A stretch of 64,000 bases of DNA, taken from contig NZ_NCST01000061.1 of NCBI RefSeq assembly GCF_002088975.1, positions 1 to 64,000 of the forward strand, read 5' to 3'. The DNA comes from Henriciella aquimarina (GTDB lineage: Bacteria > Pseudomonadota > Alphaproteobacteria > Caulobacterales > Hyphomonadaceae). Position numbers and translations under genes: made by a program. Within the stretch, counting starts at the first letter, position 1. Each line of letters opens with the position of its first letter. This document shows, piece by piece, positions 19,210-21,709 of the stretch. A model generated the notes under the pieces. That model was not told where the DNA came from and did not search any database. It saw only the letters and a program-made list of their open reading frames with translations.

Positions 19210-19812
19210 TTATTCAGGGGCCGGCTCGTCCGCACTCTCGGGCGCATCCGGTCTGATCTGGAAGCTGATGGGGTAGGCGACATCCGTCATCCGTACTGGT
19301 TTTCCGTCTTCCATTTTCGGCGTGAACCGCAGGGTCTCCACTGCTTCACGAACTGCATCTGCAAAGCCGGGATGGGTGCAATCGACCTCAATGCCAGTTT
19401 CGACGAAGCCCTCGGCTGAGACGTCGAAGTGAGCCGTGCAGTCTCCTGAGATGCCTTCTTCGGCGAGATCAATCGGATAGTGGGGCGTCGGCGGGGCGAT
19501 TGGCTCGACATATGTCTCCTCCGCCGTGCTCGGGAGAGCTGCGAACGTGATGGTCGCGAGAGCGGCGCCGGTCGCGGCCAGCCCGCCCGTTGTCTTGATG
19601 GGGTTGTGAATGAGGGTCATGGAAAGCTCCTTCGTGATGCGTTTCAACCTCATCCGGCGAGAGCGGCGCAGATAGGCATCGATGAAGGTGCGCACCGCGT
19701 GGCTCGCCGTGATGCCTTCCTTCTCGCAGGCTTCCTTGAAAGCCTCCTTCTTGGAATGCGGCAGGCGAACTTCGAGCGTGTCTGATTTCTTTTCGCGGCG
19801 TTTGATATTCAT
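19210..19812 (-). CDS. RHH-like DNA-binding segment fused to an exported TonB-like domain
   Basis: One open frame encodes 200 residues with two unlike parts. Residues 9-52 (LEVRLPHSKKEAFKEACEKE, then GITASHAVRTFIDAYLRR) look like a ribbon-helix-helix domain. Residues 65-98 form a signal peptide or membrane helix ending LPSTAEE. Residues 110-188 look like a TonB C-terminal domain (GDCTAHFDVSAEGFV, AVETLRFTPKMEDGKPV, YPISFQI). Met65 at 19620 is preceded by AAGGAG at 6 bases, so a shorter exported TonB-like product may also be made. If full length is inserted in the membrane, the RHH part faces DNA. Confidence 0.6.
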   Translation of the reverse strand: MNIKRREKKSDTLEVRLPHSKKEAFKEACEKEGITASHAVRTFIDAYLRRSRRMRLKRITKELSMTLIHNPIKTTGGLAATGAALATITFAALPSTAEETYVEPIAPPTPHYPIDLAEEGISGDCTAHFDVSAEGFVETGIEVDCTHPGFADAVREAVETLRFTPKMEDGKPVRMTDVAYPISFQIRPDAPESADEPAPE

Positions 19813-20147
19813 GCGGTGCCTCTGGCTGTCGCGTCGGACCTTTCCATGAGAGTGGGCTCACGCCGTGATTGAAACCAGAATGACGCCCCGACACCAGAAT
19901 TATCGTGTCCGGACACGCTCTTTTTTCTCTGAATATGGCTTTGCCGCCCGCCCAACGGGAGATGAACGGGACCGCCCGCAAAAGATCACATTGCGAGCGG
20001 CTTCCTGCTGCATTCTCTTACAATAACGTCATCAAAGAGGGCTTTCCGCAGGCGCTGGGACGCACGAGCGGAAGGGGGCGACGTACGGAAGGGGGCAATC
20101 TGCCTGCTGCCGTGCGTCGTCTTGTGGGGCGGTCTCTCTTCTTCATG
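19813..20147. other. Gene-free region upstream of the RHH/TonB gene
   Basis: About 335 bases between the start of the RHH/TonB gene and the terminator of the DUF2383 gene hold no convincing gene; short open frames lack ribosome sites and recognisable domains. The one clear structure is the palindrome at 19904-19917 followed by a T-run at 19921-19926. The region should contain the promoter of the RHH/TonB gene on the minus strand. Confidence 0.5.
19904..19917. promoter_or_regulatory. 14-bp perfect palindrome CGTGTCCGGACACG
   Basis: The two halves CGTGTCC and GGACACG meet with no spacer. The site is about 90 bases upstream of the RHH/TonB start, where an operator could sit; RHH proteins bind short palindromes as dimers. 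The plus-strand sequence after it (CTCTTTTTT) could also make it part of a terminator, but no plus-strand gene ends nearby. Confidence 0.4.
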
Positions 20148-20854: not shown

Positions 20855-21709
20855 TTAACTTGCCGACAGATAAGGCATCAGGGCGAGAATGGCGACGCCG
20901 AGCAGGAGGCGGTAGATCACGAAAGGCAGGAAGCTCATCCGCTTGAGCAGCGCCATCAGGCCCCAGATCGAGGCAAGCCCTGTAATGAAGGCGACCACGG
21001 CCACCACCATGCCGTCCTGGAAGGTCAGCACGCCGCCGGCCTCGGCATCGGCGGTGAGCAGGCCATAGGCGCCGTAGAGCCCGGCGGCGGCCAGGATCGG
21101 GGCACCGATCAGCATGGAAATGCGGGCGGCTTCGGTGCGCTCATAGCCGAGCGCGCGAGCTGCCGTCATGGTGATGCCGGAGCGGCTGGTGCCGGGAATG
21201 ATGGCGGCGATGGCCTGCGTCGCGCCGATCAGCGTGGCGTGCATGAGCGTCATGTCCTGCTCCTTACGCTCACGTGGGCCTGCCACGTCGGCCCACCAGA
21301 GCAGCAGGCCGAACACGATGGTCGCCCCGGCGACGGTATAGGGGCTGCGCAGCCCGGCCTGCAGGCTGGCCGGCAGGGCCGTCTCGTAAAGAAGTGCGGC
21401 AATGAGGGCGATGGGGGTCGCGACGATTACGCAGGCTGCCAGACGGGCGCCGGGCGACAGTTTCTTTTTTGAAACCGGCGCGGCCAGAAGCTCGACGCCT
21501 CCCGCTACGGCAAGGGCGACATCCTTGCGGAAATAGACCAACATGGCGAGCAGGGTGCCGAGATTGGAGACGGCATTGATGAGCAATTCATCCTGTCCGG
21601 TGACGCCAAAGGACCCGGACGCGAGCAGGACATGTGCGGAAGAGGAAATCGGCAGCCATTCTGTAAGGCCCTGGATCGCCGCGATGATGATAAGCTGCAG
21701 GAGTGACAT
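20855..21709 (-). CDS. uppP: Undecaprenyl-diphosphate phosphatase
   Basis: UppP (BacA) dephosphorylates undecaprenyl diphosphate to recycle the lipid carrier for peptidoglycan and other envelope polymers. The 284 residues are strongly hydrophobic with multiple helices. The two catalytic motifs are present: QGLTEWLPISSSAH near the N-terminus and PGTSRSGIT in the middle, with the conserved Glu, His, Ser and Arg. Length is normal. Confidence 0.95.
   Translation of the reverse strand: MSLLQLIIIAAIQGLTEWLPISSSAHVLLASGSFGVTGQDELLINAVSNLGTLLAMLVYFRKDVALAVAGGVELLAAPVSKKKLSPGARLAACVIVATPIALIAALLYETALPASLQAGLRSPYTVAGATIVFGLLLWWADVAGPRERKEQDMTLMHATLIGATQAIAAIIPGTSRSGITMTAARALGYERTEAARISMLIGAPILAAAGLYGAYGLLTADAEAGGVLTFQDGMVVAVVAFITGLASIWGLMALLKRMSFLPFVIYRLLLGVAILALMPYLSAS

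Follow-up and report, generated by a model that had tools for sequence, protein, structure and literature searches.

This locus raises the question of whether a gene that reads as a DNA-binding domain joined to an exported domain is a genuine fusion and, if so, how such a protein might act. The gene lies in a stretch of 64,000 nucleotides of Henriciella aquimarina DNA, referred to here as the window. An earlier note on this DNA had proposed an N-terminal ribbon-helix-helix (RHH) domain fused in frame to a membrane segment and a periplasmic TonB-like domain, with a second start inside the frame.

Domain layout of the RHH-TonB_C protein

The gene is a single unbroken open reading frame on the minus strand, which runs from an ATG at 19812 to a stop at 19210 and comprises 200 codons (200 aa). 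Its features and the upstream sites are collected in Table 1.

Table 1. Features of the fusion gene and its upstream region, with positions in the window.
Feature	Position	Strand	Remark
RHH / signal-anchor / TonB_C fusion gene	19210..19812	-	200 aa, start ATG 19812
RHH DNA-binding domain, residues 8-52	19657..19791	-	strand KKSDTLEVRL
Internal Shine-Dalgarno AAGGAG	19627..19632	-	6 nt before Met65
Internal start ATG (Met65), putative 136-aa short form	19618..19620	-	
Hydrophobic core of signal peptide / signal-anchor, residues 76-93	19534..19587	-	basic N-terminal, acidic C-terminal flank
Signal-peptidase-I-like motif PSTA↓EE, residues 94-99	19516..19533	-	common in family
Predicted periplasmic TonB C-terminal-like domain, residues 109-185	19258..19488	-	invariant Cys125 and Cys145
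Putative operator site 1, CGTGTCCGGACACG	19904..19917		core 12-mer -104 to -93 from ATG
Putative operator site 2, imperfect GTGTCGGGGCGT	19883..19894	-	22 bp from site 1

The RHH domain, which the earlier note had placed at residues 9-52, was recovered at residues 8-52. Single-sequence Pfam matches were sub-threshold (RelB, E 0.006; RHH_9, E 0.02), and a profile of the RHH and membrane part (the module) matched the solved structures of DinJ (9lew, E 7.6e-6), ORF56 (2k9i) and VapB26. Both RHH helices were predicted by AF2, with a pLDDT of ~94 in a relative. Residues 8-52 belong to the RHH superfamily, as they show the strand-helix-helix order, the length of ~45 residues, a basic strand residue and the inter-helix turn. 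K8, R16, K22 and R41 are near-invariant in the family, and T12, E14 and R16 of the strand are presumed to be the base-reading residues.

The C-terminal half matched TonB_C in Pfam (E 3.4e-10), and its top Foldseek match was the TonB C-terminal domain 2gsk_B (E 1.4e-5, target TM-score 0.85). Cys125 (19438-19440) and Cys145 (19378-19380) are invariant among the TonB_C-type members; they likely form a periplasmic disulfide, which could be redox-sensitive. Judged by eye from the translations, the fusion has two neighbors: an epimerase-like gene in convergent orientation and, 400 bp upstream, a gene for a ferritin-like lipoprotein (DUF4142-type). No toxin gene was found among these neighbors, and the 200-aa protein gave no Pfam match to the PRODH or P5CDH enzyme domains.

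The fusion is kept in relatives

The same in-frame arrangement of RHH domain, membrane segment and periplasmic TonB-like domain recurs in about 12 intact relatives, which come from elsewhere in the genus and from two genomes of a neighboring one, and no relative examined has the two halves as separate genes. Short RHH matches considered as split-gene relatives were mostly soluble RHH proteins of other kinds and were set aside. Mean pairwise identity was 82% for the RHH domain, 81% for residues 65-75 and 55% for TonB_C, and the dN of the RHH domain was at or near zero in close pairs. Since conservation is higher in the RHH half, which hardly changes in close pairs, this half has been selected as a protein, and the same pattern excludes both a vestigial N terminus and a missing stop. 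Besides separate genes, the earlier note had named two circumstances that would speak against the fusion, namely a sequencing error near codon 64 and the production of the Met65 form only. Neither was seen, given an open frame common to a dozen relatives and the higher conservation of the RHH half. Because the frame, the fusion and the operator described below recur in these dozen genomes, none of this is due to chance or sequencing error.

Frame breaks were observed in two relatives, L014 (G002:C2:1953332-1953870) and L015 (G006:C132:38798-39354), where TonB_C is out of frame or stopped soon after the membrane segment while the RHH and membrane part is intact. These loci represent pseudogenes, sequencing errors or a loss of the periplasmic domain.

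Exchange of the periplasmic domain in the wider family

A module search (E <= 1e-9) recovered the RHH and membrane part in 86 of the 249 sampled genomes of the order, and a few further proteins of this kind turned up in other alphaproteobacterial families; start codons of distant relatives were assigned automatically. EF-hands are the common periplasmic partner (~67 of 107 full proteins) and TonB_C is the rarer one (11), leaving ~29 proteins with neither. The last group includes an all-beta domain predicted by AF2 (e.g., L050, L049:4925-5599, L178, L200), for which no convincing PDB match was found. The periplasmic part is evidently exchanged across the family, and the RHH and membrane part is kept. 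No plasmid-borne copies of the family were found. The literature search returned no paper joining EF-hand and RHH, nor one joining RHH, membrane anchoring and autoregulation; such an absence is not proof, and a family of one-gene, self-regulating envelope proteins is apparently undescribed.

EF-hand and TonB_C members occur in tandem, each with its own operator, at G001:C2:136035-137545, G026:C201:23731-25241 and G006:C132:37944-39354. A uppP-like gene precedes the first tandem member in several genomes; in the window it is found at 20855-21709, one gene removed.

A putative two-site operator upstream of the gene

The exact palindrome CGTGTCCGGACACG at 19904-19917, suggested earlier as the RHH target, is very probably the operator, judging by its conservation in most of the family and its covariation with RHH residue 12. 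The palindrome is found ~100 bp upstream of most family members, and 76 of 116 upstream regions contain a sequence with at most two mismatches to GTGTCCGGACAC, compared with 1.0 in dinucleotide shuffles. A second, imperfect copy is located downstream, at exactly +22 bp, with a mean of 6.65 of 12 matches against a background of 3.13. This spacing equals two helical turns and would fit a pair of RHH dimers bound to the same side of the helix. The operator is common to the TonB_C, EF-hand and third-domain members and reaches other alphaproteobacterial families.

The exact 12-mer was rejected as a genome-wide marker: it occurred at 10 places in 29 genomes, seven of them before RHH genes, a total similar to that of the reversed control. 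A longer two-site model was therefore adopted. This model of 56 positions found a single strong place in the present genome (E 4.9e-12). Strong operator and module coincide in the same 18 of 29 genomes of the genus; since many of the genus sites had gone into building the model, the informative part of the coincidence is that there are almost no other strong places. No second operator or target gene was found in this genome with the two-site model, and a signaling output beyond self-control is therefore unsupported. A search of the leader for known RNA elements gave no match.

G019 is the exception: at its syntenic locus (L218, G019:C39, ~1566-1615), a recognizable operator is kept (E 2.8e-5) and the RHH-TonB gene is absent. 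Operator and promoter-like sequence lie there between the epimerase-like gene and that of a ferritin-like lipoprotein (DUF4142-type), and are probably a relic of gene loss. A conserved operator-like sequence, CGCCGGACACTAATNGTCTGGCGCCTGGTCAGG, is present upstream of a leuA-like gene (L219, L220 and L222, near 1512-1610). As evidence of a regulon, these sites in G002, G011 and G005 (E 0.001-0.01) were dismissed as weak and absent from the present genome; the element may mark a second target or belong to a leader of another kind. The operator is also absent in most of the short EF-hand members of family f2 (Caulobacteraceae-like). These f2 proteins, probably from Caulobacteraceae, have ~110 aa with RHH, membrane segment and a single EF-hand, and those lacking both the palindrome and a strong internal start are L174, L175, L181, L182, L188, L189, L194, L198, L199 and L203.

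RHH residue 12 covaries with the operator center

Residue 12 of the RHH strand, a threonine in the window protein (whose numbering is used throughout), was compared with the center of the operator. Of the 17 members with both an operator and lysine at this position, 16 have an AT center, while none of the 76 members with another residue has one (Fisher 4e-17, kinship ignored). On a tree built with residue 12 masked, ~4 residue changes and ~5 base-pair changes were counted, and all three independent pairs on supported branches agree, each in the same direction. The covariation thus rests on three to four independent changes, too few for significance alone; most p-values of the analysis likewise ignore shared ancestry, the statistics being only partly corrected for it. 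The covariation is the best evidence from sequence that each RHH domain binds its own promoter, and the RHH domain most likely reads the promoter of its own gene. By analogy with known RHH autoregulators such as PutA, we infer that it would act there by repression rather than activation.

A conserved internal start in front of the membrane segment

The AAGGAG site noted earlier ahead of Met65 proved to be part of a strong internal start that is conserved family-wide. In the window, the sequence AAGGAG-CTTTCC-ATG gives an anti-Shine-Dalgarno pairing energy of -8.8 kcal/mol, compared with -5.8 kcal/mol at Met1, whose start and Shine-Dalgarno (SD) sequence are also conserved. A juxtamembrane methionine was found in 84 of 109 members, against an expectation of ~39%. 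The internal methionine scored was the one nearest to the hydrophobic core, picked regardless of its SD, and its median pairing energy of -6.4 kcal/mol is close to that of annotated starts (-6.3 kcal/mol), compared with -2.5 kcal/mol for methionines in the C-terminal domain (p 8e-18). The energies are also lower than in synonymous recodings (p 1.4e-9, 69 distinct contexts). Since the SD core is found in all three codon phases, it is not a mere by-product of one conserved amino-acid pair. A strong internal SD tracks the operator, occurring in 67 of 93 members with an operator and in 2 of 17 without.

The short product would have a classical-looking signal peptide at its N terminus. Of the earlier suggestion that one frame could yield two products, the conserved internal start is confirmed by comparison, and we infer that the cell uses both starts. 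On these comparisons, there is good support for autoregulation and for two products.

Membrane segment and topology

The positive-inside charge bias fits an N-in/C-out orientation in 97% of members, and the protein is predicted to span the membrane once, with the DNA-binding domain on the same polypeptide. An A-x-A-like motif immediately follows the hydrophobic core in 78 of 109 members; about a third are without it, and some members resemble plain membrane anchors. In many members, core and motif resemble a cleavable signal peptide more than a permanent anchor, and the conserved signal-peptidase motif suggests that many members are cleaved.

Proposed mechanism and alternatives

We consider it probable that the gene encodes a self-regulating envelope protein in which a membrane-spanning long form, a two-site operator and a short form from Met65 work together. 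In the long product, starting at Met1, the RHH dimer would be cytoplasmic, the chain would cross the inner membrane once, and the TonB-CTD-like domain would reside in the periplasm. RHH dimers on the two sites 22 bp apart would most likely repress the gene. Initiation at Met65 would give a second product that carries an ordinary Sec signal peptide and this periplasmic domain and lacks the DNA-binding part. How much membrane-held RHH sits on the operator, and hence the output, may then depend on the amount or state of the periplasmic domain. This domain might respond to a ligand, to Ca2+ where EF-hands are present, to cleavage, or to the long form pairing with the short one, and it may modulate the tethered RHH through dimerization or pairing with the short form, as in one-component sensing. 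What the signal is and what the short form does are matters of speculation. Extended to the family, this would define a widespread alphaproteobacterial signaling class of RHH transmembrane one-component regulators with exchangeable sensors, in most cases Ca2+-binding EF-hands and here a TonB-CTD, and with a sensor-only partner made from the internal start that tunes the repressor. We put this broader reading forward tentatively, as somewhat less than an even chance.

The main alternative is an export-coupled autorepressor without sensing. The long form would be cut, the periplasmic domain would leave, and the remaining RHH-membrane stub would meter production or report export capacity, with the short form as the bulk product. 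Should the periplasmic part be cut off, the protein would not be a sensor but would regulate itself in a manner coupled to export. The A-x-A-like motif of most members, including PSTA↓EE in the window, is in line with such a scheme, as are the moderate hydrophobicity of the core, an internal start whose product has a signal peptide of its own and the failure to find a second operator in the genome. However, the members that lack the motif or resemble plain anchors fit it poorly, and diverse periplasmic domains stay linked to the RHH domain; on balance, we regard it as unlikely, though a serious contender.

The remaining explanations fare much worse. It is very doubtful that the palindrome serves a different regulator or works as a terminator, with the RHH domain acting elsewhere. 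In the window, the palindrome is followed on the plus strand by CTCTTTTTT, which recalls an intrinsic terminator, but such a T-run is missing in most TonB-type relatives, for which reason the terminator was rejected, and none of the window's genes runs in a direction in which it could serve. Binding by another regulator is at odds with an operator that accompanies the RHH module whatever the domain type or family and with the covariation of RHH residue 12. More improbable still is that only the Met65 product is made and the RHH part is a non-functional read-through extension. The SD is indeed stronger at Met65 than at Met1, yet the RHH domain is the most conserved part, with a dN near zero in close pairs, and the start at Met1 is maintained together with its SD. 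Least probable is an antitoxin of a toxin-antitoxin pair fused by chance to an exported domain: the RHH profile is closest to the DinJ, RelB and VapB antitoxins, but the neighbors are the epimerase-like and ferritin-like lipoprotein genes, with no toxin.

Relation to known systems

If the self-regulating envelope protein is real, RHH would be a further DNA-binding fold used by membrane-based regulators, and roughly one in three of the order's sampled genomes carries the module. The predominance of EF-hands suggests that calcium in the periplasm is an input, and whether bacteria sense Ca2+ by a direct route to DNA is, to our knowledge, an open question. The built-in second start would offer a genetically separable handle on a membrane regulator tuned by its own sensor domain. 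Because operator and receptor adjoin and covary, the system is directly testable.

In its layout, the protein resembles transmembrane transcription regulators (TTRs) such as ToxR, CadC and TcpP, which have an N-terminal cytoplasmic DNA-binding domain, one span and a C-terminal periplasmic domain. It differs from them in having an RHH instead of a winged helix-turn-helix domain, a cleavable-looking membrane segment, a conserved internal start from which a form devoid of the DNA-binding part would be made, and apparent autoregulation without a partner gene. The main text of a genome-wide TTR survey mentions neither RHH nor CopG (PMC10269533). In the related bacterium Caulobacter, the periplasmic EF-hand protein CaBP has been linked to gene regulation (PMC13171946); unlike the family described here, it has 133 aa with an ordinary 21-residue signal peptide, and an RHH domain was not reported.

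Trifunctional PutA also has an N-terminal RHH domain and is an autogenous repressor whose activity is tied to the membrane (PMC5293562), but it is a large flavoenzyme that shuttles between DNA and the membrane surface, whereas the present protein has a membrane-crossing segment and a periplasmic domain. The RHH fold of the protein, and the small palindromic operator and autoregulation proposed for it, are likewise found in RelB/DinJ, VapB and CopG-type antitoxins and repressors; those proteins are soluble and the antitoxins are paired with toxins, in contrast to the toxin-free gene with a membrane and periplasmic extension seen here. With TonB energy transducers, the protein has the fold of the C-terminal domain in common, but it carries an RHH domain at the N terminus and lacks both the Pro-rich spacer and the TonB-type Ser/His in the membrane helix. 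The helix GGLAATGAALATITFAAL contains no His and thus no S-x-x-x-H motif, and only ~15 residues separate it from the domain. Judged by these features, the fusion protein is not a TonB transducer, a toxin-antitoxin antitoxin or a PutA.
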